A DNA stretch of 42,630 nt from Candidatus Sysuiplasma jiujiangense. GTDB taxonomy: Archaea > Thermoplasmatota > Thermoplasmata > Sysuiplasmatales > Sysuiplasmataceae. Below the pieces are notes generated by a model. It did no database searches, was not told where the DNA came from, and saw only the letters and a program-made list of their open reading frames with translations. The translations under genes and the position numbers were made by a program. Positions 12,298 to 36,176 of this stretch are shown here, piece by piece (position 1 is the stretch's first letter; every line of letters begins with the position of its first letter). The stretch spans positions 3,509-46,138 of the forward strand of contig JAHEAD010000015.1 of assembly GCA_019721075.1 (NCBI GenBank). The letters run 5' to 3'.

Positions 12298-12305
12298 ATA
12301 TATTG
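12298..12305 (+). promoter_or_regulatory. TATA box of the AbiE operon
   Basis: The sequence atatattg is centred about 24 bases before ATG 12325, the spacing for leaderless archaeal transcripts. It supports starting AbiEi at 12325 rather than at the upstream in-frame Met 12202. Confidence 0.6.
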
Positions 12306-12324
12306 TTACAAATACTTTATATCG

Positions 12325-20437: not shown

Positions 20438-21301
20438 ATGGCGGAAACCGTAGGAACGATAAAATGCACGCTGGCGGAGGGGCCTCTCTGGGACTCAAGA
20501 CAGAATGTGTTATACTGGGTGGATATCATTGAGGGAAGGATTCATTCGTATGACCCTGGTGCAAATGCCTTTAAGTCATACAGCGCTGGAAAGCTTGTCA
20601 GCTGCATCCTGCCAAGGCAGAAAGGCGGCTTCCTGATTGCCAGAGAACATACCGTCTATTCCTGGGATCCGCACAAAGTCCCTGAAAAGATGTTTTCAAT
20701 CGACAGCGAACCTTCCAATAACAGGTTCAATGATGGAAAATGTGACCCGGCGGGAAGATTGTGGATCGGAAGCATGGACATGGAGGAGAAGAGCGCCACA
20801 GGAAGCCTCTATATGATTGGAGAGAATCTGAAAATTGACAGGAAAGTTAGAGGACTCACAGTATCAAACGGACTTGCATGGTCCCCCGATAACACCAGGA
20901 TGTACCATGTCGATTCTCCGACAAGACGCGTGTTCAGATATCACTACGACCCCGGGAGCGGCAGGATTTCCGACAGGGAAGTATTCGTTGAAATCCCTGC
21001 AGGCGAAGGATTTCCGGACGGATTGACAACAGACACTGAAGGAAACGTCTACGTCGCTCAATGGGGAGGGTTCTGTGTTTCCGTCTGGAATTCCGGAGGG
21101 GAGCGCATCAGCAGGATTTCGATCCCTGCGTGCAATGTTTCATCATGCGCGTTCGGAGGGAGTGATATGAAGGATCTATATGTGACAACAGCTGCATACG
21201 GCCTGAGCAGGGAGCAATTGAAGAAGGAAAAATTCAGCGGAGCGATATTCAGAGAAAGAAGTGACATCCGTGGAACGGAACCGGACGCATTTGCAGGATG
21301 A
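20438..21301 (+). CDS. SMP-30/gluconolactonase family sugar lactonase
   Basis: The 287-residue six-bladed propeller has the metal-binding residues of the SMP-30 family: Glu14 (LAEGPLW), Asn98-Asp99 (NRFNDGKCD), Asn144 (SNGLAW) and Asp194 (FPDGLT). The spacing of Asn144 and Asp194 matches human SMP-30. The expected reaction is hydrolysis of an aldonolactone, the second step after oxidation of an aldose. It begins a same-strand series with a sugar kinase, an iron-sulfur pair and an SDR. The lactone it uses cannot be told from sequence. Confidence 0.9.
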   Translation: MAETVGTIKCTLAEGPLWDSRQNVLYWVDIIEGRIHSYDPGANAFKSYSAGKLVSCILPRQKGGFLIAREHTVYSWDPHKVPEKMFSIDSEPSNNRFNDGKCDPAGRLWIGSMDMEEKSATGSLYMIGENLKIDRKVRGLTVSNGLAWSPDNTRMYHVDSPTRRVFRYHYDPGSGRISDREVFVEIPAGEGFPDGLTTDTEGNVYVAQWGGFCVSVWNSGGERISRISIPACNVSSCAFGGSDMKDLYVTTAAYGLSREQLKKEKFSGAIFRERSDIRGTEPDAFAG

Positions 21302-21377
21302 ACTGCACTGTGGGCCTGCAGGCTGGACTTAACAGCTGCTAATTGAAAGCCTGAAAGCAGTTCCGTGTATTCGGGGA

Positions 21378-22397
21378 ATGAAATCGATGAAGTATGTTGT
21401 AAGTTCAGGAGAAATGCTTATTGATTTGACACAGTCCGGCGGGGGAGGGAGTGCCGTTTTTGAGGCGCATCCCGGCGGTGCTCCTGCAAACGTTGCTGTG
21501 GGTATAGCAAGGCTCGGCGGCAGATCGCGCTTTTTTGGAAAGCTCTCTTATGACTGGTTCGGCGATCTGCTTCTGCGGACATTGAAGAAAAATGGCGTTG
21601 ACACGGATTTTATTCCTGAACGCTCAGAGAGGCAGACAGCACTTGCAGTTGTTTCGCTTGACAAATCCGGAAACAGAAGATTTGCTTTTTACCATGACCT
21701 GAGTGCTGACACGCGGCTTACTCCGGGAGAGGTTTCAGGAAAGATGTTCGATGATGCATCCATTTTCCACTTCGGATCCGTCTCGATGGCTACGGATCCG
21801 CCAAGAAGCGCGATGGTCAGACTGGTTGAGAATGCAAAATCAGCGAAATGCCTGGTTTCATGCGATCTCAACATGAGAGAGGATTTATGGCCTGAGAAGA
21901 GGGATATAGGCACTGTAATGGAGTTTCTGCTGTCGAATTCGGATGTATTCAAGTGCAGCGAAGAGGAGCTTCACCTGCTGGAATGCGGACTTAAGAAAGA
22001 CGGATCACGCAAAAGTGGAGGCAATTACAGCGATCGCAGCATACGCAGATGTATAGACGAATTACTCTCTGCTGGCCCCGGAATGGTTATCGTCACACGA
22101 GGACGTGGAGGTGCGGTCGTTGGATGTGAAAACAGCATCGTAAGCGTTCCCGCTTTCCGGGTGAGAGCAGTGGACACGACCGGAGCAGGTGACGCGTTTA
22201 CCGCAGCGCTGCTCTATCGCCTTGTCAGGGACGGTTTTACAGATGCTTCCGGATTCAGCGTTTTGTCTGAGAGCACACTGACAGAAATTGGTCGCTTCTG
22301 CAATGCGGCCGCGGGTTTCAGCTGCATGCATTACGGCGGAATTGATTCCCTCCCCACAATCAGAGAGATATCAGAAATTCTGAAGACCGCGAAATGA
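21378..22397 (+). CDS. PfkB family sugar kinase
   Basis: This is a 339-residue ribokinase-fold enzyme. The N-terminal substrate motif GGAPANVAVGIARLG and the C-terminal ATP/anion-hole motif DTTGAGDAF with catalytic Asp272 are intact. The sequence pattern (GEMLIDL, ALAVVSLDKSGNRRFAFY, SCDLNMREDLWP) is of the fructokinase / 2-keto-3-deoxygluconate kinase branch. It would phosphorylate a sugar or keto-sugar acid made in this cluster. A second in-frame Met (21387) is an alternative start. It lies 76 bases after the lactonase. Confidence 0.9.
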   Translation: MKSMKYVVSSGEMLIDLTQSGGGGSAVFEAHPGGAPANVAVGIARLGGRSRFFGKLSYDWFGDLLLRTLKKNGVDTDFIPERSERQTALAVVSLDKSGNRRFAFYHDLSADTRLTPGEVSGKMFDDASIFHFGSVSMATDPPRSAMVRLVENAKSAKCLVSCDLNMREDLWPEKRDIGTVMEFLLSNSDVFKCSEEELHLLECGLKKDGSRKSGGNYSDRSIRRCIDELLSAGPGMVIVTRGRGGAVVGCENSIVSVPAFRVRAVDTTGAGDAFTAALLYRLVRDGFTDASGFSVLSESTLTEIGRFCNAAAGFSCMHYGGIDSLPTIREISEILKTAK

Positions 22398-22543
22398 CAG
22401 CTCATTCCCGTTTCGATACATGAGCGCTTTCCATGAGCAGTTTCTTCTGATGACTGTTGCAGCAGTCACTATCACTGCACTTAATGGAATTTCACATCAT
22501 GTAGATCATAAATTGTCGAATCAGAGCCGTCTAAAAACCATGG

Positions 22544-22551
22544 TTAAATAG
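22544..22551 (+). promoter_or_regulatory. TATA box of the lutA-lutB-SDR operon
   Basis: The sequence ttaaatag lies about 30 bases before GTG 22577 and 39 before ATG 22586, so the transcript probably begins close to the start codon. Confidence 0.6.
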
Positions 22552-22576
22552 TAAAATTAACTCTTCACCCCCGGCA

Positions 22577-23491
22577 GTGTTATTGATGTCTCCTGCAAAC
22601 GAGCAGCGCCTGAAGTCTCTGGTATTTTTGAAAAAGTTCGCATACGGCAATCTGATGAAAAATTATCTTCCGTTTCCAATGGATACAAAACTGTGTTCGG
22701 GATGGGCGAAGGGAATCCCGACGGAAGGTCCCACTGTAATCTATACATCCATGATGTACCAGATGGCACCTCTTTTCAAGAACTATGAGAAGATGCTTCC
22801 CACCATTTCAAAGATGAAGGGAATTTCACAGCTCGCAGGCATCGGGAAGTATTTTTACAGGCCATCAAAAACAGAGGTTGAGAGGGCATACCGCATCCTT
22901 AACAACATTGCAGCCATGCTTAGTAACTCAGGAGTACAGTTTGCATATCTGTATGACAGGGAGCCATACAGCGGGGCGCTGCTGCTTGAACTAGGCATGA
23001 TTGACGAATTCCGGGAATACGGAAAACGCCTGCTGGAATTCTTCGGAAGCAGGGGCATCACAAGACTGATAACAGTGGATCCGCACACGACAAATGCGCT
23101 GTCAAGGCTCAGGGAATACCATAAGTCCGACATTGAAGTTATCCCGTATCTCTTTCTTCTTAAGGGTGCAAGGGCGGAGGGTGAGTTTGTACTGCATGAT
23201 TCCTGCCTGTACTCGAAACACCTGAAAATGTACGAAAGCATCAGGCAGTTTATGAGGGACAGCGGCCTTAAGCTGAAGGAGGACAGAATGGTCACAGGCA
23301 GGGAGACTGCAATGTGCTGCGGTTCTCCCGTCGGTGTTGTGAATCCGGAGCTCAGCGGGGAAATAGCTGCCCATCGCGCAGTAAAACTGTCTTCTGTCGG
23401 GAGCAGGGTGATATTAATGTGCCCAATGTGCTATCAGAATCTTTCGCCACACATTCGGGATATTTCGGATCTGGCTGAGGTGATTCATTGA
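22577..23491 (+). CDS. LutA-like CCG-domain iron-sulfur oxidoreductase subunit
   Basis: The 304-residue protein has one complete cysteine-rich CCG site: HDSC, then MCCGSP, then MCPMC, of the kind found in LutA, GlcF and HdrB. The equivalent site in the N-terminal half is degenerate; where a GC(L) motif is expected the sequence reads YTSMMYQMAP. LutA with LutB and LutC oxidises lactate in bacteria; related proteins act on glycolate and other 2-hydroxy acids. The start may be GTG 22577 or ATG 22586. The stop overlaps the TTG start of the next gene by four bases. Confidence 0.85.
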   Translation: MLLMSPANEQRLKSLVFLKKFAYGNLMKNYLPFPMDTKLCSGWAKGIPTEGPTVIYTSMMYQMAPLFKNYEKMLPTISKMKGISQLAGIGKYFYRPSKTEVERAYRILNNIAAMLSNSGVQFAYLYDREPYSGALLLELGMIDEFREYGKRLLEFFGSRGITRLITVDPHTTNALSRLREYHKSDIEVIPYLFLLKGARAEGEFVLHDSCLYSKHLKMYESIRQFMRDSGLKLKEDRMVTGRETAMCCGSPVGVVNPELSGEIAAHRAVKLSSVGSRVILMCPMCYQNLSPHIRDISDLAEVIH

Positions 23492-24642
23492 TAAGTGAAT
23501 GGGATGTAGCGCTCGAAAGGTCGACAGTGAACAACGTTCCCGGGGTATGGAACGTCCTTGAGAGATACCCTTACATTGAAAGCATCAGGAAGAGTCTCCG
23601 GGAAGCGAAATTGAAGGTTATTGAAAACATGGACGTGTATCTGAAGCAGGCTATGGAGTCTGTCTCAAGGAGCGGCGGTAAACCGCATTTCGCAAGGAAT
23701 GCCGAAGAGGCCCTGAAGATAGTGGACGGCATAATAGGCGACAGCAAACATATCATCATGGGCAAGTCAAGCGTCGCATTTGAAATCGGCCTCAGAAAGC
23801 ATCTGGCTGAGACCGGGAGGGATGTGTGGGAAACAGACTTCGGCGAGCTGCTTCTTCAGATATCGAACGAGGAGCCGTCACATATCATAACAGTTGCGCT
23901 TCACATGACAAGGGAGGCTTTCGGCCGAAGCATACATGAAAAGCTGCAGAAATCGATAGACGAAAATTCGTCCGCTACGGACATGGCTGCCGTTGTAAGG
24001 TCGTTTCTCAGCGAGAAATACCAGAAGGCGGAGGTCGGAATAACAGGTGCAAATGCGGTTGCCGCTGATACAGGCTCCGTTGCACTCGTGGAGAATGAGG
24101 GCAATATCCGCATGACCACCGTAAAGCCGGCCGTTCATATCGTTGTGACAGGCATCGACAAAATTGTTCCGACAATGCAGGACGCATTCCATGAGATAAT
24201 GATCCAGTCCGCATATGCGGGTTCCTACCCTCCCACATACATCAATTTCACAACCGGACCAAGCTCAACGGGCGACATTGAATCTGAAATTGTGAGACCA
24301 GCTACAGGACCAAAGGAGGTTCATGTGGTCTTTCTTGACAACGGAAGGATGAAAGCTGCCGGAGACCCGGTTCTCAGGCAGTCTCTGTTATGCGTTAGGT
24401 GCGGAAGATGTTATTTTGCATGTCCTGTCTACGGCATACTGGGAAAGGACTGGGGAAAGCCGCCATACAGCGGGCCCACAGGTGTGATGTGGCATTCCAT
24501 CGTGACAGGCGACAGCTCATATGCGCACCTCTGCACTCATTCCGGAGGATGCAAGGAGGTCTGTCCGATGGATATAGACATACCGCGGGTAATGGAATAC
24601 CTCAAATGGAAGGATATGCAGGGAATGACAAAAGGAAAGTGA
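23488..24642 (+). CDS. LutB-like LUD-domain iron-sulfur protein
   Basis: The 384-residue protein has a LUD domain (residues about 60-280; GITGANAVAADTGSVALVEN, GIDKIVPTMQDA) and a C-terminal dicluster ferredoxin domain. The first cluster motif is complete (Cys302, 305, 308, 312 in CVRCGRCYFACP). In the second, CTHSGGCKEVCP, the second Cys is Ser352 between Cys349 and Cys355, so it may hold a three-iron cluster. A LutC partner is absent. The protein should pass electrons from oxidation of a 2-hydroxy acid together with the LutA-like subunit. The start is TTG, coupled to the gene before it. Confidence 0.87.
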   Translation: MISEWDVALERSTVNNVPGVWNVLERYPYIESIRKSLREAKLKVIENMDVYLKQAMESVSRSGGKPHFARNAEEALKIVDGIIGDSKHIIMGKSSVAFEIGLRKHLAETGRDVWETDFGELLLQISNEEPSHIITVALHMTREAFGRSIHEKLQKSIDENSSATDMAAVVRSFLSEKYQKAEVGITGANAVAADTGSVALVENEGNIRMTTVKPAVHIVVTGIDKIVPTMQDAFHEIMIQSAYAGSYPPTYINFTTGPSSTGDIESEIVRPATGPKEVHVVFLDNGRMKAAGDPVLRQSLLCVRCGRCYFACPVYGILGKDWGKPPYSGPTGVMWHSIVTGDSSYAHLCTHSGGCKEVCPMDIDIPRVMEYLKWKDMQGMTKGK

Positions 24643-24652
24643 AGGTGTACTC

Positions 24653-25435
24653 ATGGATGTTAAGGGAAAAATAGTCGTTGTAACCGGCGGCTCAAGCGGA
24701 ATAGGGAGAGCGATAGTTGAGGGTCTTATTGACGGCGGCGCAAAAGTGGTAACCTGCCATCGCGGGGATGAACAGGGAGCTGCGGAGCTTGCAGATTATG
24801 TGTCACGTAAAGGGCATGCGGCAGATTTCGAGATTGTTGACGCCGATGTATCAAAAAAGGGGACATCGGAATTGCTTCGGAAAGCTGCCGTGGATAAATT
24901 CGGTGCGCTTAACGGCTGGGTCAACAATGCTGCAATACAGATACTGTCAAGGTCTGAGGAACTGAGCGAAACTGAGTGGCACAAAATACTTTCTGTAAAT
25001 CTCGATGGCTATTTCTTTGGCTGCCAGGCGGCTGCCCGGCACTTCATAGCTACGGGCTCTTCGGGCAGCATTGTCAACATTACATCCGGCGTAAATCTCC
25101 TTGCTGTCAAATTTCTGGCCGCATACACGGCATCCAAAGGAGCGGTTGCGTCGCTCACGAGATGCCTTGCAGTCGAATGGGGACGATACGGCATCAGGGT
25201 CAATTCACTCGCGCCCGGGGCCACCGACACGCCGCTGAATAAAACACTCTATACCCCCGAGGTGAGGAAGACATACAACGACAGGATACCGCTGGGGCAC
25301 ATTGCGTTGCCGGAAGAAATTGCCGATGCGGCAATTTTTCTCATTTCGGATGCAAGCAGGTACGTGAGCGGTCACGAACTTGTTGTTGACGGGGGCCTCA
25401 ATTACAACGGCACCGTTTATCAGCCGCTCGGATAG
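24653..25435 (+). CDS. Short-chain dehydrogenase/reductase (SDR)
   Basis: This is a classical SDR of 260 residues: nucleotide motif TGGSSGIG (about residues 11-18), NNAA, the catalytic Ser in NITSGVN, Tyr-x3-Lys in YTASKGA, and the C-terminal VSGHELVVDGG. It oxidises or reduces a sugar-type alcohol with NAD(P). A ribosome binding site (aaggtg) sits in the ten-base gap after lutB, so it belongs to that operon. The position fits a sugar dehydrogenase acting before the lactonase, but the substrate is not readable. Confidence 0.9.
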   Translation: MDVKGKIVVVTGGSSGIGRAIVEGLIDGGAKVVTCHRGDEQGAAELADYVSRKGHAADFEIVDADVSKKGTSELLRKAAVDKFGALNGWVNNAAIQILSRSEELSETEWHKILSVNLDGYFFGCQAAARHFIATGSSGSIVNITSGVNLLAVKFLAAYTASKGAVASLTRCLAVEWGRYGIRVNSLAPGATDTPLNKTLYTPEVRKTYNDRIPLGHIALPEEIADAAIFLISDASRYVSGHELVVDGGLNYNGTVYQPLG

Positions 25436-25467
25436 GGTAGGCATAGGGGCGTCTGTTCCCCGCCCTT

Positions 25468-26382
25468 TCATCTGAAGGTTCTGCGGATTTTGCCGGCAAG
25501 GAATGAAACAGAGCGCACAAGATCCATGTTTCCGTTCACTCCGTCCTCGATAGATATCCATCCGTTGAAATCAATTTCCTTCAGGATTCCAAAAACACTG
25601 TCATAATCGATCAGCCCCGTGCCGACAACGCCGTGCTCGAGTGACTCAGGATAACCCACACCTGTATATTTTTTCAGATCCTCCAATGAGTAGCCGCTCT
25701 TCAGATGTCTGTCGCTGGCATGCATGGTAAGTATTCGCCGTTTGAATTTTCCGAGCACCTCAATTGGATCCTGTCCGGAAACAAGCGCGTTCGAAGGATC
25801 GTAATTGATTCCAAACCATGGTGAGTGAATGCTGTTGACTATTTCCTCGAAAATATCTATAGACTGCGCGAACTCCGGGTAAATCCATCTCCCGTCCTTG
25901 TAGTGGTTTTCCATCACCAGATGCACGCCGTATTCCTCGGCGTAGGGAATAAGCTTCTCGATGGATTCGACAACCCAGCCGATTCCGTCCTCCCTTGAGA
26001 TCTGAGGACGCCTCTGACCGGAAAGAACCCTGCATGTTCTAATCCTGCCTCCGGTTTCAGACTTCGACATCGTCTTTATCCAGAAGAGCATATCATCAAT
26101 CTGGCCTTTCCTGTATTCCCTGTCTGGATTCGTAAAGTCGGGGGAAGTGCACATCATTGGCACCAGAAGCCCCCTGGATTTTGCATAGTCATGAATTCTG
26201 AGTACGTCCCCTTCGCTTTTTTTCTGGTAGAAATACGGATACATTTCAATGCCGTCAACGCCGAGTTTGGAAGCTTCTTCTATCCAGCTTTCGAGGGGTC
26301 TGTTTCCGCTGCAGAGGTCATCGAAATAACCTTTGGGAAACGCAATCAAACCGGGTCCTTGCATTTCAACCACTCCGCTCAT
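25468..26382 (-). CDS. Sugar phosphate isomerase/epimerase (xylose isomerase-like TIM barrel)
   Basis: The 304-residue TIM barrel of the AP-endonuclease-2/xylose isomerase-like superfamily has the four metal ligands visible: Glu in VMENHYKDG, Asp in INYDPSNAL, His in TMHASDRH and Glu in ISIEDGVNG. Relatives include UlaE, IolE, IolI and ketose 3-epimerases. It follows the HUMPS-family gene with a four-base ATGA overlap. That pairing resembles UlaD with UlaE in L-ascorbate/L-gulonate breakdown, where the epimerase acts on the pentulose 5-phosphate product. This parallel is an inference. Confidence 0.85.
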   Translation of the reverse strand: MSGVVEMQGPGLIAFPKGYFDDLCSGNRPLESWIEEASKLGVDGIEMYPYFYQKKSEGDVLRIHDYAKSRGLLVPMMCTSPDFTNPDREYRKGQIDDMLFWIKTMSKSETGGRIRTCRVLSGQRRPQISREDGIGWVVESIEKLIPYAEEYGVHLVMENHYKDGRWIYPEFAQSIDIFEEIVNSIHSPWFGINYDPSNALVSGQDPIEVLGKFKRRILTMHASDRHLKSGYSLEDLKKYTGVGYPESLEHGVVGTGLIDYDSVFGILKEIDFNGWISIEDGVNGNMDLVRSVSFLAGKIRRTFR

Positions 26383-27083
26383 GCAGTGTTCGGGTGCTTT
26401 ACGAGGGATACGACTTCTTTGAGAACCTTTCGTATTTCTGATGATTCGGAAGCAGGCGAGAAGGAGTGCCCGTCAATCACCAGCGGGGCTCCGACCACAA
26501 CAAGCGGGGCTCCGAGAGCGGGCAGTTTAGGCAGATCCCTGATAGACAGACCGCCTACTGCCTGAACCGGGCAGTCAACGGCATCCACTATCTCCCGCAG
26601 GAAGTCAACCGGACTGCCGCCGTTCTCGCCCCTCTCATCGAATCCGAGATGGGCGATGACAACATCCACCCCCGCCTCCTCGAGTTCTTCGGCAGCCCTT
26701 ACCCTGTCGCTTCTGCCCAGAATGTCTCCCATGACGTATATGCCGTAGTCGCGGGCTGCCCGTATCGTGGCCCTGACGGTGGCAGGATGACTTGCAGCCA
26801 TCACGACGACAAAATTTGCGCCTGCCTTTGCCATCATTTCTGTCTCAAGATATCCTCCGTCCATCGTCTTCAGGTCTGCCACTATCGGCGTACCTGGAAA
26901 TTTTTTTCTGAAATGGGACACGGCGTGCAGACCTTCGCCGAGCAGCAACGGTGTGCCGACCTCCAGCCAGTCCACGCCCGACTCCATGGCTATTTCCGCA
27001 ATCGGTTCGGCTTCCCTTATCGTTTCCAGATCCAGGGAGACCTGGACAGTAGGTTTTTTCAGATCTCCTTTCGTCAGTTTCAT
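26379..27083 (-). CDS. HUMPS-family aldolase/decarboxylase (hexulose-phosphate synthase or keto-gulonate-phosphate decarboxylase)
   Basis: The 234-residue orotidine-monophosphate-decarboxylase-like barrel has the family active site: Asp18 (VSLDLE), Glu41 (LEVGTP), and Asp70-x-Lys72-x2-Asp75 (ADLKTMDGG). The sequence EVGTPLLLGEG and AHLGFDERGENG is closer to archaeal 3-hexulose-6-phosphate synthase than to E. coli UlaD. No SIS-domain hexulose-phosphate isomerase is adjacent, which argues against a standard ribulose-monophosphate module. Both neighbours overlap it by four bases, so three enzymes are made from one coupled unit. Confidence 0.85.
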   Translation of the reverse strand: MKLTKGDLKKPTVQVSLDLETIREAEPIAEIAMESGVDWLEVGTPLLLGEGLHAVSHFRKKFPGTPIVADLKTMDGGYLETEMMAKAGANFVVVMAASHPATVRATIRAARDYGIYVMGDILGRSDRVRAAEELEEAGVDVVIAHLGFDERGENGGSPVDFLREIVDAVDCPVQAVGGLSIRDLPKLPALGAPLVVVGAPLVIDGHSFSPASESSEIRKVLKEVVSLVKHPNTA

Positions 27084-28126
27084 AGCATCAGCACTCCTTT
27101 CGCGATCCTTCTCTTCTCCATATCTTCAAATGCGTCCTTCCATCTGTCCAGGCTGTACTGCCTGACAATCCTTTCGGGATTCAGCTTTTTTGTTGTGAAC
27201 AGCCTTAGCACTCTCTCCCATGTCTCCCAGTTGTGGCTGAATGACCCATGCAGTTCGACAGCCTTTGCAACAATCTGGTCAAGGTTAAACCCTGGAACGT
27301 CCGGACCCCAGCCAACCTTTACAATCCTTCCACCTGGCCGGATAACATCAAGCGCAGTCTTGAGCGTCGCACTGACTCCCGAGGCGTCAACAACCACATC
27401 CACACCATCGCCCCAGCCGGAATGACTCAGTGCCTCCACAGCCGCACGCGCATTGTCGAAAATCATGTTCGCACCTATTTCCAAGGCGGTTTTGAGCCGT
27501 TCAGCGTCTGAAGGCACACCGAGCATTGCAATGGCCGCTGGGGATCTGAGCGTCGCAACCTGAAGGCAGAAGAGTCCTATAGGACCCGGACCGATTATGA
27601 GAACGCTGTCGGCAGGTTCTATTTTTCCTATCGTGGAAGTGGCGTTGAAGGCCACACAGCTCGGTTCTGTCAGCGCAGCGGTTACATTGCTTACTGCGTC
27701 GGGCACCTTGTGGAGTATCTCCTCCCTTGCAATCAGGTATTCAGCCATTCCGCCGTCTGTTAGAGCGCCGAAGCCAATCCTGCTCGAGCAGAGGTTGTAA
27801 TTTCCCTTCCTGCAGTTATAGCATCTTCCACAAACATGGAACGCGGTTTCGCAAACCACTCTGTCTCCCGTTTTGAAATTTCGAACTTCGCTCCCTGTTT
27901 TATCGACTATTCCCATCAGTTCATGTCCCAGAATTACAGGTTCCTTCCTTGGATAAGATTCCGTTCCGTTGTAAACGTGTATGTCGCTGCCGCACACGCC
28001 AACAGCCTTCATCTTCAATCTCACTTCCGTCTTTCCGGGTTCGCCCGGATCACGCACTTCCTTCAGCACAACTTTTCCTTGACCATGCGATTCGGAAACT
28101 ATAGCCTTCAAATTCGACACCACCAC
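27080..28126 (-). CDS. Zinc-dependent alcohol/polyol dehydrogenase (MDR)
   Basis: This is a medium-chain dehydrogenase of the sorbitol/threonine dehydrogenase group. The catalytic zinc ligands lie in GVCGSDIHVYNG and GHELMG, the structural zinc site is CGRCYNCRKGNYNLC, and the NAD motif is GPGPIGLF. I place the start at a run of three GTG codons (28126-28118), where the family's N-terminus (LKAIVSE) begins. An ATG at 28201 would add an unlikely Cys-containing tail. It is the first gene of the overlapping trio with the HUMPS enzyme and the isomerase, so it probably makes the keto substrate. Confidence 0.87.
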   Translation of the reverse strand: MVVSNLKAIVSESHGQGKVVLKEVRDPGEPGKTEVRLKMKAVGVCGSDIHVYNGTESYPRKEPVILGHELMGIVDKTGSEVRNFKTGDRVVCETAFHVCGRCYNCRKGNYNLCSSRIGFGALTDGGMAEYLIAREEILHKVPDAVSNVTAALTEPSCVAFNATSTIGKIEPADSVLIIGPGPIGLFCLQVATLRSPAAIAMLGVPSDAERLKTALEIGANMIFDNARAAVEALSHSGWGDGVDVVVDASGVSATLKTALDVIRPGGRIVKVGWGPDVPGFNLDQIVAKAVELHGSFSHNWETWERVLRLFTTKKLNPERIVRQYSLDRWKDAFEDMEKRRIAKGVLML

Positions 28127-28470
28127 TCGGCTAGACAGGTCACATAGAATAACATTTCTAGAAACATGCAGGTCGAAGCGAAGGACAGCATGGACAGCCA
28201 TATTCCGCTGGCAAATGGCAAAGGGAGCCCATGTCTGTACACCGACGAAATTATATCGCCGTTTTACAGAAAGAATCCTTTGCTTGCGAAACGATTCGAG
28301 AAACAGAAACGCACATCGGCGGTTTCACCGGATCGTTTAATCAAAAGGTTGCGCTCTCTTCAGAAAAACTGCAGATTTGCATATCGTTCAGATCTCAGCG
28401 CTGAACAAAATTAAGTTTGCCGGGAAACAGATTAATATAGCTATATCCGGATGGGGGGGAAGGTGAAAAA
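28127..28470. other. Divergent gap between the dehydrogenase trio and the solute-binding protein
   Basis: It carries promoters for both sides. The only open frame on the plus strand (28166-28414) has no family features and is not called. A TATA-like ttaatatag (28432-28440) serves the binding-protein gene. Confidence 0.5.
28432..28440 (+). promoter_or_regulatory. TATA box of the solute-binding protein gene
   Basis: The sequence ttaatatag is 31-39 bases before TTG 28471. A purine-rich gggggaaggtga (about 28455-28465) directly before the TTG acts as ribosome binding site and supports this non-ATG start. Confidence 0.6.
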
Positions 28471-30129
28471 TTGACGCAATCTGCGAGTGGGAACGAAAAG
28501 CGTGGAAATAAAAAGATATTGTGGGCGTCAATAGTTGTGGTGGTAGTTATCATTGTTGTAGTTGCTGCCGCAACTGCAGTCATATTGTCCAAACCGCCCA
28601 CAAAGAAGAGCAATACGGTTTACTTCTACACCTGGTGGGGACCAACCAGCGGTAGAGCGCTGCAGAATCTGACGGAAGCTTTCCATACGGCATATCCGCA
28701 GTACACTGCCGTGCCTACGGTATCTCCCGGGGCGGGAGGCACCAATGCGAAGTACGCCATACTTACACTAATCAAGGCAAACGATCCTCCGAACACATTC
28801 CAGACCCACTATGGACCTGAAATGCTGAGTTACATAGAGGCTGCTCCAAGCGGAGCCAACTCGTTCGTCAACTTTACAAGCTATGTTCAGAGCAATATGG
28901 CCAACAAAGCTGTTTCGTCCGTTCTTGCTGCCGGGACCTACAATGGTGTCACATTCTCGCTGCCTGTGGATGCACATCAGGGTGCACAGCTATTCTTCAA
29001 TCCTCAGGTTCTGGCCAAATACAGCCTCCCGATACCCAATAACATGTCCACGTTGCTCAGCGACACCGTTGCTCTGGGCAGCCATGGCATCAATGCCTGG
29101 GTCATACCCGGCGGAGACGGCGGATGGGACCAGCTGAATGTCTGGGAGAATGCGTTCCTCGCGTATGGCGGCAATACCATGTATGACGAACTCATGTATG
29201 GAACGCTTAACACAAGCAGCCCGAGTGTTATGCATGTTCTGAACGAAACAAACGCCGCATTCTTTACATTTGAGAAATACAGCATGCCCGGTCTCGAATC
29301 GGACAGCTGGCTGCAGGCACTGCCCTATGTCCTGAAGGGTCAGGCGGCTTTCTACACTTCAGGCAACTGGGTTCTTGAATATACAACAGATTACCTCAAT
29401 GTCCTCGTTTATCCGGCAACCGCACCATACACTTCGTGGACAAACCTTACAATGCTCGACCAGTCCTTCCCGGGAACGCAGAACTACTGGGTCCTTGTTA
29501 CAGACTCAGTTGCGGTACCGTCCGGTCCTACATCAACGCTTGGTCTGACGTTTGCAAAGTATTTCTCATCCTATGCTGGAGATAAGGTGTTCACAAAGAC
29601 CAAGGCAGTAACATTCTATAATAATGTTACATCCGATTACTACGCGACCCAGGCGCAGTGGTACAGTTACAAGACACTTCTCAACACGAGCCCGTCCAAC
29701 TTCGTTTACCAGCTGTCGGATGGAGGACTGTTCGACAATGTGTTTGCGTCATACACCTCCGCAATGACTGCCCTTTCTGAGATAGGACCTTCTGATCTAG
29801 CGGCATGGAACCTGACGCTTTCGAGTGGCATCAGCAGCGAACAATCCGAATGGATGACCGCCAACTCTCTTGGCTACGGATACATGGGCTTCCCGGGCCA
29901 CCCCTTCGGAGGCTACGCCCCCCCATGGGCAACAGCAGCAGTGTCAGGAGTTGCAGCGCATCCTAACAGCGTCAGCACCACTGGTGTTACCAGTGCAAAG
30001 TCTCCGACTGCAAGCAGCCACATCCAGAAACCGGTGAAGATCAACTACGTCCAGATTTCACTGACTTCGGTGACCTTGCTTCAGAAGTTCTATGTAATGG
30101 GCGTCAGCCAGGGAACCAGACTGCTGTAA
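28471..30129 (+). CDS. Sugar ABC transporter solute-binding protein
   Basis: The 552-residue extracellular binding protein has a short charged N-terminus and one membrane helix (about residues 15-38) as signal anchor. The mature domain starts VYFYTWWGPTSGRALQNLTE, a pattern of sugar-binding proteins of the GlcS/MalE type. Many N-glycosylation sequons (NLT, NFT, NMS, NVT) fit a surface location. The last 70 residues (after GGYAPPWA) are a Ser/Thr/Val-rich tail with no membrane helix. The permeases and ATPase (33290-36176) lie 3 kb away on the other strand. High expression is suggested by the strong promoter and a T-rich terminator. Confidence 0.88.
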   Translation: MTQSASGNEKRGNKKILWASIVVVVVIIVVVAAATAVILSKPPTKKSNTVYFYTWWGPTSGRALQNLTEAFHTAYPQYTAVPTVSPGAGGTNAKYAILTLIKANDPPNTFQTHYGPEMLSYIEAAPSGANSFVNFTSYVQSNMANKAVSSVLAAGTYNGVTFSLPVDAHQGAQLFFNPQVLAKYSLPIPNNMSTLLSDTVALGSHGINAWVIPGGDGGWDQLNVWENAFLAYGGNTMYDELMYGTLNTSSPSVMHVLNETNAAFFTFEKYSMPGLESDSWLQALPYVLKGQAAFYTSGNWVLEYTTDYLNVLVYPATAPYTSWTNLTMLDQSFPGTQNYWVLVTDSVAVPSGPTSTLGLTFAKYFSSYAGDKVFTKTKAVTFYNNVTSDYYATQAQWYSYKTLLNTSPSNFVYQLSDGGLFDNVFASYTSAMTALSEIGPSDLAAWNLTLSSGISSEQSEWMTANSLGYGYMGFPGHPFGGYAPPWATAAVSGVAAHPNSVSTTGVTSAKSPTASSHIQKPVKINYVQISLTSVTLLQKFYVMGVSQGTRLL

Positions 30130-30160
30130 ACCCTGCAAGGAATCAAAACTTTTACAAACC

Positions 30161-30186
30161 ACTTTCTTCTCTTTATTTTATTTTTG
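30161..30186 (+). terminator. T-rich terminator of the binding-protein gene
   Basis: The sequence ctttattttatttttg follows the stop by about 30-55 bases, typical of archaeal poly-T termination. Confidence 0.6.
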
Positions 30187-30224
30187 AATGATACGCTGCG
30201 GCATCATCCGGCATTTTACAGTAG

Positions 30225-31253
30225 CTACAGCGTCAACATGACTTTTGACGAGCCAATAAGATTGGAGGCCAGTTTCCTGAAAACATCAGGCCCGTTATCA
30301 AGCGGCTCCATCGAAATCCAGTTCTGCCGATCATCCAGGATGTTCGTGCCCGCAAGCTTCACCGCCCTGGAAAATTCGACGTCCGTATATGCGTACGACC
30401 CCTCTATCACAAGTTCGCCCCTCACAATTGAGTTTGCTCCGAGCCTGGACGATGCCTCATGATTCCCGATGAAAATTGCCTTGCCGCCTCTTCTTATGAC
30501 CTCGACACACTGAGCCCTCGTTGATTCCAGGCCAACAGCATCGAATGAGAAATCTGCCCCCTGGCCAACTGCATTTTGCAGGTTCAGTATGGCATTGCTG
30601 TCACTGCCGTTTATCACCCGCGTGGCTCCCATACTCCGGGCTGTCTTCAGCCTCTCCTCGTTCACGTCGACTGCGGTGCAGTCTTCCACGCCATGCAGTT
30701 TCAGGAGTTTGAGAACTAACAACCCTATAATGCCCATTCCAAAGACAACAGCGCTGTCGCCTGTTCTGAATTTGCACTTGTCAACGGCCCTGAGAGCCGT
30801 TGCAAGCGGTTCGGCTATTGCGCCGGCAACCGGATTTTCCACCGGATGGCATGATGCTGCAGGAACAGCGACATATTCCGCAAAGGAGCCTGGAAACGCG
30901 GCTCCGATGATTCTCCTGTCCTGACACAGATTCCTCAAACCTGAAAGACAGTACGTGCAGTGGCCGCATGTTACCATTGGATTGACTGCGACAAGCCTGC
31001 CTTTCAGATGCTCCGGCGAACCAGTACCTGTCTCCTCCACGATGCCCGAAAATTCATGCCCCATAGTGAGTGGCGGTACCCTCAGTTCATTCAGACCCAG
31101 ATACGCAGCAACTTCGCTTCCGCAGACGCCGGACATGGAGACCCTGACAAGCACCCAGCCGGCAGGGATCTCAGGTTTGGACACGTCCTCGATCTTCATC
31201 TCATTTCTGGCTACCCATACAAGCGCTTTCATTGCCACCGACATCTGAAACAC
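30225..31253 (-). CDS. Zinc-dependent alcohol/polyol dehydrogenase (MDR), second copy
   Basis: This is another medium-chain dehydrogenase: catalytic zinc motifs GVCGSEVAAYLG and GHEFSG, structural zinc site CGHCTYCLSGLRNLC, and NAD motif FGMGIIGLL. It differs clearly from the dehydrogenase at 27080-28126 and so probably acts on a different carbon or substrate. The most family-like start is the Met at 31232 (MKALVW); starts at 31253 and 31241 are in frame. It reads towards the binding-protein gene and shares the cluster with the Gfo/Idh/MocA enzyme. Confidence 0.87.
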   Translation of the reverse strand: MFQMSVAMKALVWVARNEMKIEDVSKPEIPAGWVLVRVSMSGVCGSEVAAYLGLNELRVPPLTMGHEFSGIVEETGTGSPEHLKGRLVAVNPMVTCGHCTYCLSGLRNLCQDRRIIGAAFPGSFAEYVAVPAASCHPVENPVAGAIAEPLATALRAVDKCKFRTGDSAVVFGMGIIGLLVLKLLKLHGVEDCTAVDVNEERLKTARSMGATRVINGSDSNAILNLQNAVGQGADFSFDAVGLESTRAQCVEVIRRGGKAIFIGNHEASSRLGANSIVRGELVIEGSYAYTDVEFSRAVKLAGTNILDDRQNWISMEPLDNGPDVFRKLASNLIGSSKVMLTL

Positions 31254-31329
31254 TGGCTTAACATTATCGTTTTTCGGCAGAAACGCATACGCGATTCAGA
31301 GGTTGCCGCTGTTACCGTTTCAAAGCTCG

Positions 31330-32316
31330 TTACTTCTGCAACGGAGTCGTTCCGGCCTTATAGATTTCCAGGACAGCTGCAAGATCTCTCTTCGCAATTA
31401 CCGGATCCATGGGTGGTTCGCTCCTCTCTTCGACAGCCTTGAGAAAACCTCCGATCTCCTTATCGAATACATCTTCTATTTTGATGTCAACTGTCTTTCC
31501 GTTCAGTACGGGTTTTCCAAACGCGTAGCGGATGCCGGACATGTACTTGAAATCCACTTCGGGATGTGTGCCGACATCCTCCACTATGCTGCCCTCGCTG
31601 CCTATGACTTCGAACGAGGGTAACCGCGGACTGTAAGGATAGCTCCATGTATAGAAGAGCAGGCCATGTGCCGACGATTTGAAATCAAACAGTGAAATGG
31701 ACGTGTCCTCTCCCTCAATAGAGGAAGAGCCATGGTAAGCCGCCGACCTGATACTGCGGTAGTCGCCGCCCAAGTTGAGAAGCGTGTCGACGAAATGGAT
31801 GCCGCCGTCAATAAGGGAACCGCCACCCATTACTTTCGCATCTGTCCTCCAGCCGTTCTTGCTGTAAAGCCTCTGATCCCGGACAATGATCGTGTGAACT
31901 CTGCCGATTTTTCCCTCGTTCACTGCCCTGACTGCATATCTGACGGATGAATCAAAGTAATACTGCTCTGCCACCATGAATTTCACTCCTGTCCTGGCCG
32001 CCGTTTCAATCATCAATTCGGCGTCGGCGACAGTCGTTGCTATCGGTTTTTCAATCAGCACATGCTTCTTCCTGGAGATGGCGTCTAATGCAACTGCCCT
32101 GTGCATGTTATGCGGCAGGATGATATCGACTATTTCGGCGTCTGATGACAGAGCCTTCGTAATATCGCTGAAAGTCTCCGTTGCGCCGTAGGCTTCGGCC
32201 GTCTCTTCAAGAATCTTTTCATTACGGTCATAGAGCGCAATTTCGACGTTCTGTTTTTTCCATGAGTCGAGATGCACCTTGCCAAAACCTCTTGAGCCGA
32301 GAACCAGGGTTTTCAT
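31330..32316 (-). CDS. Gfo/Idh/MocA family sugar/inositol dehydrogenase
   Basis: The roughly 328-residue oxidoreductase has an N-terminal Rossmann domain (VLGSRGFGKVHLDSW), the family EKP motif (LIEKPIAT), and a beta-sheet C-terminal domain with GGSLIDGGIHFVDTLL, where the catalytic His usually sits. Family members oxidise inositol, glucose or other sugars with NAD(P). I chose the Met at 32316 because MKTLVLGSRGFG is the natural N-terminus and a TATA-like cttttaat lies 25-32 bases upstream. An in-frame Met at 32355 overlaps that promoter. Confidence 0.88.
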   Translation of the reverse strand: MKTLVLGSRGFGKVHLDSWKKQNVEIALYDRNEKILEETAEAYGATETFSDITKALSSDAEIVDIILPHNMHRAVALDAISRKKHVLIEKPIATTVADAELMIETAARTGVKFMVAEQYYFDSSVRYAVRAVNEGKIGRVHTIIVRDQRLYSKNGWRTDAKVMGGGSLIDGGIHFVDTLLNLGGDYRSIRSAAYHGSSSIEGEDTSISLFDFKSSAHGLLFYTWSYPYSPRLPSFEVIGSEGSIVEDVGTHPEVDFKYMSGIRYAFGKPVLNGKTVDIKIEDVFDKEIGGFLKAVEERSEPPMDPVIAKRDLAAVLEIYKAGTTPLQK

Positions 32317-32340
32317 GAAGGAGGGATAGACGTGAAGGTG

Positions 32341-32348
32341 ATTAAAAG
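32341..32348 (-). promoter_or_regulatory. TATA box of the Gfo/Idh/MocA gene
   Basis: The reverse strand reads cttttaat at leaderless distance from ATG 32316 and lies inside the longer reading frame, which is evidence against the 32355 start. Confidence 0.55.
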
Positions 32349-32427
32349 TTTTCATGGATGTACATTTCGAATCCGTTCGTTCCTGGAAATAGAAGTTTTA
32401 ATTTCCCGGGATCGTCACACGTTTGCC

Positions 32428-33234
32428 TCAGCGGGAATCGCTGCGGTGCATTTTCCTGAGGACTGAAAATGCGGTCGTCTCATTAAGTGCTGTCATCTGA
32501 CCACCGTCAACCAGCATGGAACTGCCGGTAACGAATGATGACCTGCCTGATATCAGAAAGCTCACTGCCTCGGCAATCTCTTCGGGTTTGCCTGCCCTTC
32601 CGAGAGCATGCGAGAGGCAGGATGCCTCATATTCAGCCGGTTTTCTCTTCTTCCAGTCCAGTATCCGCTCGCTCGCCACAAGACCGGGCAGTATGGAATT
32701 TGCCCTTATCCCAAGATGACCGAATTCAAGCGCTATCGAGCGTGTCAGTGCATTCATTGCGGCCTTCGCGGCGTCATATGCAGCTGAATCGACATCTCCG
32801 GCCGCAAGAGCGTGCACAGAGGATATGTTGACTATACTTCCGCCTCCATTCCTGATCATCAGCGGGATTAGTTTCCTGCACAGGAGAACAGGTGCGAAGA
32901 AAGTGACATCGAATGTCCGTCTCCAGTCTTTCCCTGTGAGTTCCAGAAAGGGCTTGCTTACCATGGCAAAAGCACTGTTCACGAGTCCGGTCAGTTTCAC
33001 CCCTGATCTGCCCGCGGCACGTGCAATCCGGTCTATTGTTCCGGCCTCGGAAATGTCGCCTGTGACATGGATTACAGAATCATTACTGCCTGCGATTTTA
33101 TCGAAAACCCTGCTTGTGTCCACTAAGTCGTTCAGAATAAGATCATAACCTTCCGAGGCCAGCTTCATGGCTGTTGCCTTGCCTATTCCAAGGGAAGCGC
33201 CTGTAATAACAACTGTATTTCCGCTTCCTTCCAT
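32428..33234 (-). CDS. Short-chain dehydrogenase/reductase (SDR), second copy
   Basis: This is a classical SDR of 268 residues with TGASLGIG, catalytic Ser in NISSVHA, Tyr-x3-Lys in AAYDAAKAA and the C-terminal VTGSSMLVDGG. The NNAG structural motif is replaced by VNSAFA, as in some family branches. It probably oxidises or reduces a sugar, keto-acid or polyol of this pathway. A TATA-like gttatatc at 33266-33273 on the reverse strand gives it its own promoter. It sits between the ABC importer operon and the Gfo/Idh/MocA gene. Confidence 0.88.
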   Translation of the reverse strand: MEGSGNTVVITGASLGIGKATAMKLASEGYDLILNDLVDTSRVFDKIAGSNDSVIHVTGDISEAGTIDRIARAAGRSGVKLTGLVNSAFAMVSKPFLELTGKDWRRTFDVTFFAPVLLCRKLIPLMIRNGGGSIVNISSVHALAAGDVDSAAYDAAKAAMNALTRSIALEFGHLGIRANSILPGLVASERILDWKKRKPAEYEASCLSHALGRAGKPEEIAEAVSFLISGRSSFVTGSSMLVDGGQMTALNETTAFSVLRKMHRSDSR

Positions 33235-33289
33235 TTCACTTCATCCCGTTCATCGCTGCATTACTGATATAACTTACCGGCGTCCGGAA

Positions 33290-34462
33290 TCAGTTAAACG
33301 CCGGCTGTATGACTTTTCCGTCGTAATTCATTATCGAGCGCCCTTCGGTGTCAAACAGCAGAATCTCGTTCTTCCTGACATATACCTTTACTGGAGTTCC
33401 TCCCGGCAGCGGAACTTCGCTTGTTGTCACAATATCCTTGTCTATGCCGGGAATGTTGAATATCACCCTGAACACGCCAACCGAATAACCGGAAATGTTC
33501 ACCGTACCGTTGCTGAGCATGAGCCATTCTTTCTCATTCAGTTCTTCATCCTCATCTTCTGTCGTAAGCATTATTCCCTCTGGCCTGAGACCGAGAAGGA
33601 TTTTCATTTCTCCGGCGCTCCTGTGCGCATCCCCTAACTGCTCCGGGCTGATTTCAAAACCGATCTTCTCCCCGATATTGACCACAGACCTGCTGCCGGC
33701 TGTCAGTTTCGAAGGTATGAGGTTTATTTCACCAATCGCCCTGGCTACATCGATAGCCTTCGGCTTGTGATAGAGCGTTTCGGTCGCGGCTGTCTGAATG
33801 TTCAGGCCGTTGGATATCACCAGGGCATTGTGCGCGAGTGCGAAAATATCGGCCGGATCATGGGAAACAATTATGGCCGTGATTTCCAGTTCCTTCTGCA
33901 CGTTCCGGACAAGCGAACGTGCGCTGTCCTTGATGGTCGCATCGAGATTGCTGAAAGGTTCGTCGAGGAGGAGCAGGGACGGATCCTTGGCGAGCGCCCT
34001 GCTCACGGCGACCCTCTGCTGCTGTCCGCCGCTGATATTGCCGGGCCTCCTGTTCAGGGCTTCCCGTATATCGAGGAGATCGGCAAGGAACTCCACCTTT
34101 TTCCTGATCTCGGGAGCGGGCATTTTTCTCGCCCTCAACGGGAAGGCTATATTCTCATAGCTCGTAAGATGCGGATAGAGCGCCCAGTTCTGGAATACCA
34201 TACCGATGTTTCTGCCCTCGGCCGGAACATTGATCTTTCCGTTTTCAGCGACCACTTCATCGTTGAAATAGATTGAACCCGTCGTTGGTTCTTCCAGGCC
34301 GGCAATGAGTCTCAAGAGTGTCGTCTTGCCGGCGCCGCTGGAACCGATAATGCCGTAGAAGTCCCTGTTTTCAACTGTGAACGATATGTCCTTGATGGCT
34401 GTTTTTATCCTGTTTCCGCGTCCAAACGATTTCGTAACATTTCTGAATTCTATTTTTACCAA
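33290..34462 (-). CDS. Sugar ABC transporter ATP-binding protein (MalK/GlcV type)
   Basis: The 390-residue ATPase of the carbohydrate importer family has Walker A GSSGAGKTT, Q-loop VFQNWALYPHL, signature ISGGQQQRV, Walker B LLLLDEPFSNLD and switch His in VSHD. The C-terminal 150 residues form TOBE/OB regulatory folds (LGLRPEGIML). It drives uptake through the two permeases encoded just upstream, with a six-base gap after the second permease. It resembles Sulfolobus GlcV in overall layout. Confidence 0.93.
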   Translation of the reverse strand: MVKIEFRNVTKSFGRGNRIKTAIKDISFTVENRDFYGIIGSSGAGKTTLLRLIAGLEEPTTGSIYFNDEVVAENGKINVPAEGRNIGMVFQNWALYPHLTSYENIAFPLRARKMPAPEIRKKVEFLADLLDIREALNRRPGNISGGQQQRVAVSRALAKDPSLLLLDEPFSNLDATIKDSARSLVRNVQKELEITAIIVSHDPADIFALAHNALVISNGLNIQTAATETLYHKPKAIDVARAIGEINLIPSKLTAGSRSVVNIGEKIGFEISPEQLGDAHRSAGEMKILLGLRPEGIMLTTEDEDEELNEKEWLMLSNGTVNISGYSVGVFRVIFNIPGIDKDIVTTSEVPLPGGTPVKVYVRKNEILLFDTEGRSIMNYDGKVIQPAFN

Positions 34463-34468
34463 TCCGGT

Positions 34469-35320
34469 TCACCCCTTGCCGCCCGAGCCCAGGGCCAGAA
34501 ATCCTCTTATGAAGTATCTGCCGAGTACGATTATAAGCAATAGCGGAAGAAGGGACGATATCAGTGCGGCAGCAAAGCTCTCATTGTACAGCGCACCGTA
34601 GCTGCCCGAATAGGACATCACCAGCACCGATGCAGTTCTCATGGGAGGTGTCGAGGTGAGTATAAGAGGTATGAAAAAATTATTCCATGTTTCAACTATT
34701 ATGAACATGAAGGTGGATATCGCACCTGGGATGACCAGCGGCCATACTACCTTCCTGAATATGAGCCAGTCATTTGCTCCGTCTATCCGCGCCGCTTCCA
34801 GTGTCCGCTTCGGCAGGACGGCCATAAAGATCGACATCAACAGGGCCCCTGTCGGAAGGTAGAAAACAAGAAAGGCGAATATCAATCCGTAATATGTATT
34901 GAAAATACCCAGCTTCACCGCCAGGCTGGTCAGCGGCACAAGCGTTATCTCATAGGGCACAAAGGTGGCGATTGCTATTATTGTAAAAACAGTGTCGTTG
35001 AAGTATGATTGCTTGAGGGAAAGATGGTATGCAGCCATTGCCCCCAGGAAGGTCGAGATTGCAGCCACCGGAATCGTGACGATAAGGCTGTTGAGCAGAC
35101 TCTGCTTCATCTGGGAGAACACTGTTTCTATAGCGGACAGTGAGAAGCCCGCAGGCTCCAGAACGGGAGTGCTGATGACTCCCGATGCAGTCTTGAATGA
35201 ATTGATTAGCAGGCTGTAGACAGGAATCAGCCATATTGCCGCAAAAAAGCACAGCAGTGCAATTACAACAGCAGAGCGTATCAGTATTTTGGTCCGCGCG
35301 CTGATCAGCTGCTCAGTCAT
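34469..35320 (-). CDS. Sugar ABC transporter permease (MalG type)
   Basis: This 283-residue protein has six hydrophobic segments and the EAA coupling motif EAARIDGANDWLIFRKVVWP that docks on the ATPase. The first helix (AVVIALLCFFAAIWLIPVYS) and the beginning of the binding-protein-dependent transport domain are typical of the MalG/GlcU class. It overlaps the upstream permease by eight bases and is followed by the ATPase, forming an operon of permease, permease, ATPase. Confidence 0.93.
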   Translation of the reverse strand: MTEQLISARTKILIRSAVVIALLCFFAAIWLIPVYSLLINSFKTASGVISTPVLEPAGFSLSAIETVFSQMKQSLLNSLIVTIPVAAISTFLGAMAAYHLSLKQSYFNDTVFTIIAIATFVPYEITLVPLTSLAVKLGIFNTYYGLIFAFLVFYLPTGALLMSIFMAVLPKRTLEAARIDGANDWLIFRKVVWPLVIPGAISTFMFIIVETWNNFFIPLILTSTPPMRTASVLVMSYSGSYGALYNESFAAALISSLLPLLLIIVLGRYFIRGFLALGSGGKG

Positions 35321-36176
35321 TTGTTATCCACCTCTTCAGGCCCAGGAGCGCGTAGGGTATCACGACAACTGCCGCCAGAATAACCAGCACTACGCTCGCA
35401 GCAGATGAATCGGCGAAAAACTCGGTAATGTAGTAGAAGTACATACTGAGGACAGCCGTTTCGGTAAAGGGATTCAGACCGGTCGATACAAAGGGAAGTG
35501 AAAATATTCTGAGTGCAAACAGGAAAAGCAGTGCTGTTGAAACAATGAATGCATTCTTCGATTCAGGAAGCAGTATTTTCGTAAGGATCCTGATCGTTGA
35601 GGCACCGTCTATCCTGGCGGATTCGATTACCTCCTTAGTGACATTCTGGAATGATGCAAGATAGAATATCACAGCAAGCCCGGAGAATACCCAGATGGAT
35701 ACGAGGATGAGACTTGGAAGTGCGGAGGCAGGCCTGTCGAGCCATGTGTACTGCGGCAAACCCAGAGCCCGGAAAATTGTGTTTATGCCTGTCCTTGTAT
35801 TGTACAGCCATGTCCATATCACAGCGGATGCGGCCAGGGAAATGGCAAGCGGGTAAATGAAAATAGTGGTGAATATCAGCCTTATTTTGCTGCTTCCGAC
35901 ATTATATATCAGTGTTGCAAAAAATATTCCGAAAATATTGCCAAACAGTATGAGAGAAGCGGACCATATGAGAGAGCTCCTCAGCGGATTGGTGAATGCC
36001 GTGTCTCTGAAAATTGAAGTGTAAGTCTGGAAGCCCACAAAAGTGGCGACCGGATGAAACGAAGAGGAGTTTGTGAAGGACGTATATACATTCCAGCCGA
36101 CAAGATACAGGAGGACAACGGAGAATATTCCTGTTGGAATGAAGAAAAGGAAACTGGTTCGTTTTAAAAGCACCAT
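35313..36176 (-). CDS. Sugar ABC transporter permease (MalF type)
   Basis: This 287-residue permease has six membrane segments and the EAA-type motif IESARIDGASTIRILTKILL. The N-terminus (FLFFIPTGIFSVVLLYLVGW) and the periplasmic-side loop (SFTNSSSFHP) are typical of the MalF/UgpA/GlcT class without a large insertion. It is the first gene of the importer operon. A TATA-like tatttaagg lies about 110 bases upstream (36283-36291), suggesting a leader. Confidence 0.92.
   Translation of the reverse strand: MVLLKRTSFLFFIPTGIFSVVLLYLVGWNVYTSFTNSSSFHPVATFVGFQTYTSIFRDTAFTNPLRSSLIWSASLILFGNIFGIFFATLIYNVGSSKIRLIFTTIFIYPLAISLAASAVIWTWLYNTRTGINTIFRALGLPQYTWLDRPASALPSLILVSIWVFSGLAVIFYLASFQNVTKEVIESARIDGASTIRILTKILLPESKNAFIVSTALLFLFALRIFSLPFVSTGLNPFTETAVLSMYFYYITEFFADSSAASVVLVILAAVVVIPYALLGLKRWITND

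Follow-up and report, generated by a model that had tools for sequence, protein, structure and literature searches.

The 42,630-nucleotide stretch of Candidatus Sysuiplasma jiujiangense DNA analyzed here (the window; contig 15 of the 2.29-Mb draft genome G000) contains, at positions 20438-36176, a gene cluster that looks like a new sugar-acid catabolic system. This view is partly supported, and by test the system belongs to neither the UlaD/UlaE type nor inositol catabolism. Three adjacent genes, H, G, and F, encode a zinc-dependent dehydrogenase, a lyase of the HUMPS superfamily (related to enzymes that remove a single carbon from a sugar), and a xylose-isomerase-like TIM barrel. Because they travel together across bacterial groups, these three are the functional core, a trans-domain dehydrogenase-HUMPS-isomerase module. 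On our reading, the cluster would serve the breakdown of an aldose taken up by the cell, or of the corresponding aldonate, which would be oxidized and then cleaved at a C-C bond by G, with the product rearranged by F; this tentative reading falls a little short of probable. The core trio of this acid-mine archaeon likewise occurs as a group in many soil bacteria. It marks out an uncharacterized HUMPS subfamily whose partners stay the same in both Archaea and Bacteria, and a functional assignment could extend to dozens of genomes. For the archaeon itself, such an assignment would put a name to a way of oxidizing sugar that differs from Entner-Doudoroff.

Distribution of the H-G-F Module

The module was observed directly in many genomes. 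A search with F over 84,980 species genomes returned 60 loci, 57 of them outside Thermoplasmata. A G protein of the same clade occurs at 49 of these 57, and, the bacterial loci having been recovered via F, the counts state how often G accompanies F and not the reverse. A nearby dehydrogenase is present at 46 of the 49 G-bearing loci, and at 33 of them a zinc dehydrogenase is more than 38% identical to H. The three genes lie together in Paenibacillus, Bacillus, Alicyclobacillus, Actinomycetes, and Abditibacteriota. Among their bacterial neighbors, LacI regulators, sugar ABC importers, and short-chain dehydrogenases/reductases (SDRs) are frequent; a D-2-hydroxyacid dehydrogenase, Ldh_2, and a nickel-pincer isomerase of group 22 recur more rarely. 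One such nickel-pincer-dependent isomerase, at L105:14162-15460, scores 545.9 bits (cut-off 400) and shares its gene row with the module.

In the collections searched, the full module turned up in no annotated record, and when plasmids were searched with the G protein, the annotated matches listed were all ordinary HxlA and UlaD. Literature on the HUMPS subfamily, its neighborhood, and decarboxylases of the 3-ketogluconate/apiose type, searched in an open library without most subscription journals, yielded nothing on the module.

Gene Content and Conservation

The genes are labeled A-O, in window coordinates:

A, 20438..21301, + strand: SMP-30/gluconolactonase-type lactonase (PF08450, 273 bits)
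B, 21378..22397, + strand: PfkB sugar kinase, fructokinase-like, accessory (PfkB, 169 bits; PRK09434 fructokinase, 186 bits, under cut-off; best PDB match PH1459)
C, 22577..23491, + strand: LutA-like CCG protein (PF02754, 28.5 bits)
D, 23488..24642, + strand: LutB-like LUD/4Fe-4S protein (PF02589, 150 bits; TIGR00273, 336 bits, cut-off of 444.8 not reached)
E, 24653..25435, + strand: SDR dehydrogenase 1 (SDR1; PF13561, 200 bits)
F, 25468..26382, - strand: xylose-isomerase-like TIM barrel, core module (PF01261, AP_endonuc_2, 130 bits)
G, 26379..27083, - strand: HUMPS-superfamily lyase of a distinct clade, core module (PF00215, OMPdecase/HUMPS, 83 bits)
H, 27080..28201, - strand: zinc-dependent dehydrogenase 1 (ZnDH1), core module (PF08240/PF00107)
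I, 28471..30129, + strand: GlcS-type sugar-binding protein of an ABC importer (NF040930, 616 bits, above the cut-off of 500)
J, 30225..31253, - strand: zinc-dependent dehydrogenase 2 (ZnDH2; PF08240)
K, 31330..32355, - strand: Gfo/Idh/MocA dehydrogenase (PF01408 + PF22725; 72.6 bits)
L, 32428..33234, - strand: SDR dehydrogenase 2 (SDR2), glucose-1-dehydrogenase-like (PRK07231, 171 bits, under cut-off)
M, 33290..34462, - strand: GlcV-type ABC ATPase (NF040933, 432 bits, cut-off 450)
N, 34469..35320, - strand: GlcU-type permease (NF040932, 356.6 bits, above the cut-off of 340)
O, 35313..36176, - strand: GlcT-type permease (NF040931, 360.5 bits, above the cut-off of 360)

All of the named gene families are present as full-length, intact, in-frame open reading frames (ORFs), and neighboring genes overlap or abut in the pairs F/G, G/H, and C/D. 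The family scans and intact ORFs bear out an earlier note on this DNA, which had listed these enzymes as lying together. That note had also proposed a single catabolic system and had set scattering of the genes in relatives as its refutation; this was checked, and the cluster stayed together, in support of a single system. The gene order in G002 is identical to that of the window, G001 has the cluster as a mirror image, and G004 has it rearranged yet kept together, with B and L absent near it. G007 retains I-H-G-F-E on a 4.8-kb contig. Every relative whose contig spans the region has the cluster, with its order largely conserved, and of 60 relatives, the 5 that carry G are also the 5 that carry F. 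(Outside this family, the strong matches were mostly ORFs of ~430-580 residues, 34-45% identical, that resemble fusion proteins of 3-hexulose-6-phosphate synthase, HPS.) This conservation in G002, G001, G004, and the surviving 4.8 kb of G007 shows that the genes are grouped by more than chance.

The HUMPS Enzyme G

The key residues of G are D70, K72, D75, D120, H145, F148, V176, and G198-A199-P200, and the catalytic frame D..DxKxxD..D..H is invariant in 28 aligned members. The DxKxxD motif of UlaD is found in G as D70-L-K72-T-M-D75, with D, K, and D invariant. Three further positions, E112, R139, and T169, were chosen as UlaD-diagnostic from the titles of PDB entries 1xbx and 1xbz, which name their changes to D, V, and A. 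The corresponding residues of G are D120, F148, and V176; every member checked has Asp at the first position and Val at the third, and the second is either F or Y and in no case R. In HPS, the same positions hold D, I/L/T/V, and A. The last strand reads GAPLVID in the G clade versus G[SG]AI. The curated RuMP_HxlA model gives G 147.9 bits and does not reach its cut-off of 200. The UlaD model gives 62 bits versus a cut-off of 294, and the earlier identification of G as UlaD fails on this score and on the three diagnostic residues. In a phylogenetic tree, 45 G proteins form a single clade with support of 100/100, separate from HPS fusions, stand-alone HPS, and one UlaD-type sequence, with long outgroup branches. 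Judged by its frame, G is a predicted HUMPS lyase that by test falls in neither the UlaD nor the HPS family.

HPS (HxlA; archaeal HPS-RraA and HPS-PHI fusions) is the closest characterized family to G by sequence and fold, with 38% identity to 9lj9 in a structural alignment. An AlphaFold2 model of G (pLDDT 89.5) retrieves HPS as the best Foldseek match, then UlaD; the TM value for 1xby is 0.78. G and HPS share the DLKTMD motif and an Asp at position 112, whereas G stands alone in its own clade, carries QAVGG and GAPLVID where HPS has xAGG and GSAI, and has Phe/Tyr rather than Ile/Leu/Thr/Val at position 139. Moreover, 6-phospho-3-hexuloisomerase (PHI, TIGR03127) exceeds its cut-off in 0 Sysuiplasma genomes, this one included; ordinary formaldehyde handling by the ribulose monophosphate pathway was rejected because PHI was not found.

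The 4 Sysuiplasma G sequences group with 2 sequences from metagenome-assembled genomes (MAGs) of Bacillota at 99/99, inside an otherwise bacterial clade. This nesting suggests a bacterial origin of Sysuiplasma G by transfer, subject to the caveat of possible errors in MAG binning. Outside Sysuiplasma, the closest H-G-F modules, whose G is 69% identical, lie on the MAG contigs L053 and L054, labeled Bacillota, for which transfer across domains or mis-binning is possible.

The TIM Barrel F

F contains a putative metal site composed of E158, D195, H221, and E279; E, D, and E do not vary among 24 aligned sequences, and 23 of the 24 have H. We take this E-D-H-E set to be the usual metal site of the fold, as in ketose 3-epimerases. 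The nearest folds to the AlphaFold2 model of F (pLDDT 93) are Art22, AtHYD (2-hydroxy-3-keto-glucal hydratase), IolE, ketose 3-epimerases, and UlaE. These matches are 12-20% identical, so the fold alone does not assign a reaction to F. The D-psicose epimerase model scores 25.0 bits (cut-off 300) and the UlaE-side model PRK13210 25.8 bits (cut-off 200), and the latter speaks against the earlier assignment of F as UlaE. What does stand is that a HUMPS enzyme and a TIM-barrel isomerase form a pair, as they do in ula/yia. In L-ascorbate/L-gulonate breakdown (UlaD-UlaE; YiaK, SgbH, SgbU), as here, the HUMPS enzyme adjoins a xylose-isomerase-like TIM barrel and a dehydrogenase supplies the keto acid. 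The systems differ in that G lacks E112/R139/T169, F is distant from UlaE in sequence, import is by an ABC transporter rather than PTS/TRAP, and the kinase lies outside the conserved module.

Proposed Pathway

Support is best for three steps: I and M-O would carry out import, L (or, in G004, a glucose dehydrogenase (GDH)-like enzyme) C1 oxidation, and A lactone hydrolysis. Compared with the archaeal glucose transporter GlcSTUV of the Sulfolobales type, three of the four importer subunits (S, T, and U) exceed their curated cut-offs, whereas the GlcV-type subunit is slightly under (432 versus 450 bits); this importer supports the proposal that a hexose-like sugar is taken up. Lactonase A is restricted to G000, G001, G002, and G004, the 4 Sysuiplasma genomes with a complete cluster. 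The G004 cluster has no counterpart of SDR2 (L), and its lactonase adjoins a GDH-like zinc dehydrogenase bearing a Glu_dehyd_C domain. In Paenibacillus foliorum, the gene row is lactonase-LacI-H-G-F-SDR. The lactone and aldonate steps of the earlier note are supported by this distribution, the GDH-like neighbor, and the Paenibacillus operon containing the module.

The substrate, the individual reactions, and their order are what we infer from these genes. The GlcSTUV-type transporter would import a sugar, which an SDR (the GDH-type enzyme in G004) would oxidize at C1 to a lactone, and the SMP-30 lactonase would open the lactone to the aldonate. ZnDH1 (H), or an SDR in some bacteria, would then oxidize a secondary hydroxyl to give a keto-aldonate. 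G would break the C-C bond beside the ketone, most likely with loss of CO2 via an enediolate, to yield a pentulose, which the metal-dependent TIM barrel F would epimerize or isomerize. In the genus Sysuiplasma, the PfkB kinase may phosphorylate the pentulose or an intermediate. The most likely role of LutAB, together with SDR1/ZnDH2, is to oxidize an alpha-hydroxy acid with recycling of electrons, as in the rhamnose-type cluster described below. We favor decarboxylation over release of formaldehyde since the presence of a lactonase points to an acid; the residues are compatible with both. In favor of this pathway, alpha-hydroxy-acid enzymes recur by the module: LutAB here, and the nickel-pincer isomerase, D-2-hydroxyacid dehydrogenase, and Ldh_2 in Bacillota.

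Several observations weigh against this pathway. A lactonase is found at just 1 of the 57 bacterial loci, which were found through F. Asp120 and Phe148 of G are closer to HPS, and since the positions that distinguish UlaD from HPS are nearer HPS in G, retro-aldol release of formaldehyde would be as compatible with these residues as decarboxylation. In addition, three haloarchaeal plasmids (L116, L117, and L118) hold homologues of F and H (45-48%) without G. Their neighbors are a prokaryotic ketohexokinase and, in place of G, a class I aldolase-like protein, with sulfatases and other hydrolases nearby. Because haloarchaeal F and H occur beside these two enzymes without G, F may act on a free ketose instead of downstream of G. 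The haloarchaeal clusters may themselves constitute a sugar catabolic system of salt-loving archaea.

Alternative Pathways

The earlier note placed a kinase step just before the HUMPS enzyme: PfkB would phosphorylate the keto-aldonate, G would decarboxylate a 3-keto-aldonate 6-phosphate to a pentulose 5-phosphate, as UlaD does, and F would be the 3-epimerase. The HUMPS-TIM pairing and the E-D-H-E metal site do resemble UlaD/UlaE, and, to our knowledge, the characterized HUMPS enzymes among the PDB matches all use phosphorylated substrates. B has orthologues in G001 and G002, and the kinase adjoins the lactonase in 3 of the 4 complete Sysuiplasma clusters. However, B is missing from the G004 cluster, the best homologue elsewhere in that genome being a poor one (31%), and a PfkB homologue occurs at 0 of the 57 bacterial loci (an FGGY kinase at 4). 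These absences weaken the kinase step, and the UlaD-diagnostic residues are lacking in G as well; this version is possible, although on balance unlikely. Because B is missing from one of the four complete clusters and from all 57 bacterial loci, the best reading is that it is not core, and that phosphorylation is peripheral, lineage-specific, or carried out by an unlinked kinase.

A bolder form of our pathway dispenses with the kinase altogether. H-G-F would be an oxidative pentose route in which G decarboxylates an unphosphorylated 3-keto-aldonate without a phosphate handle and F epimerizes the free pentulose. We regard this as decidedly unlikely, but if true it would represent an equivalent of the oxidative pentose phosphate pathway that runs without phosphorylation and is common to Bacillota and Thermoplasmata, and an unphosphorylated substrate would break the rule that the HUMPS superfamily works on phosphorylated sugars.

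G could also be an aldolase of the HPS kind, converting a 3-ketose, free or as the 6-phosphate, to a pentulose and formaldehyde, with F interconverting 2- and 3-ketoses. Its closeness to HPS in sequence and fold, the HPS-like Asp at the E112 position with a residue other than Arg at 139, and the haloarchaeal class I aldolase beside F and H are consistent with such chemistry. We consider it improbable, given that the HPS model falls short of its cut-off, A169 of HPS is Val in G, PHI exceeds its cut-off in no Sysuiplasma genome, and the lactonase implies an acid intermediate.

An inositol or cyclitol pathway of the Thermotoga kind, in which the Gfo and zinc dehydrogenases would oxidize the ring, the lactonase-like protein would be the ring hydrolase, and F the epimerase, is highly improbable: the best scores of H and J are to the scyllo-inosose 3-dehydrogenase IolM (207 and 165 bits; cut-off 450), K matches IolG (82; 355), and F matches IolE (60; 290) and IolO (37; 300), but none comes near its curated cut-off, the importer is of the glucose type and mostly over cut-off, and G has no role there. 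These cut-offs led us to reject inositol catabolism as the leading reading, and with it the earlier Thermotoga analogy.

LutAB and the Rhamnose-Type Cluster

The LutA-like C is conserved beside the LutB-like D in Sysuiplasma relatives. Both have paralogues on contig 19 of G000 and in G003, where an SDR and a zinc dehydrogenase resembling J are their neighbors. At the bacterial loci, LutA occurs at 0 of 57 and LutB as one distant homologue only. As a specific part of the module, LutAB was rejected on this absence and on its recurrence in the rhamnose-type cluster.

That second sugar cluster (L119; G000 contig 19, 3000-21000) probably encodes an L-rhamnose pathway. It contains an SDR resembling L-rhamnose-1-dehydrogenase, a rhamnonate-dehydratase-like MR_MLE protein, a DapA-like aldolase, an MFS transporter, the paralogous LutA-LutB, and a 38% paralogue of J. 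On the Thermoplasmatales L-rhamnose dehydrogenase model, the SDR reaches 421.6 bits (cut-off 450); the closest match of the MR_MLE protein is rhamnonate dehydratase. The cluster of the window resembles the Thermoplasmatales L-rhamnose pathway in that the set of C1 SDR, zinc dehydrogenase, and LutAB recurs in L119, but it differs in having a HUMPS enzyme and a TIM barrel in place of the dehydratase and DapA-like aldolase of L119. Rhamnose routes that form lactate use LutAB to oxidize it, and by analogy LutAB here probably oxidizes an alpha-hydroxy acid. Family scans found no sugar-acid dehydratase, an enzyme expected of a non-phosphorylative Entner-Doudoroff route, among the cluster genes, as had been noted earlier; that statement holds within the cluster but not genome-wide, as 4 MR_MLE-family proteins elsewhere in the genome exceed the cut-off.

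Other Genes in the Window

At 38632-40552, a second PfkB kinase, ribokinase-like, overlaps an ADP-ribosylglycohydrolase-like gene, possibly for salvage of ADP-ribose or ribose. Judged by eye, an adjacent gene pair at 12202-13769 resembles an AbiEi/AbiEii-type toxin-antitoxin, the gene at 5150-6013 resembles a tyrosine recombinase, and a short ORF at 38024-38548 resembles an N-terminal fragment of a TnpB-type transposon protein.

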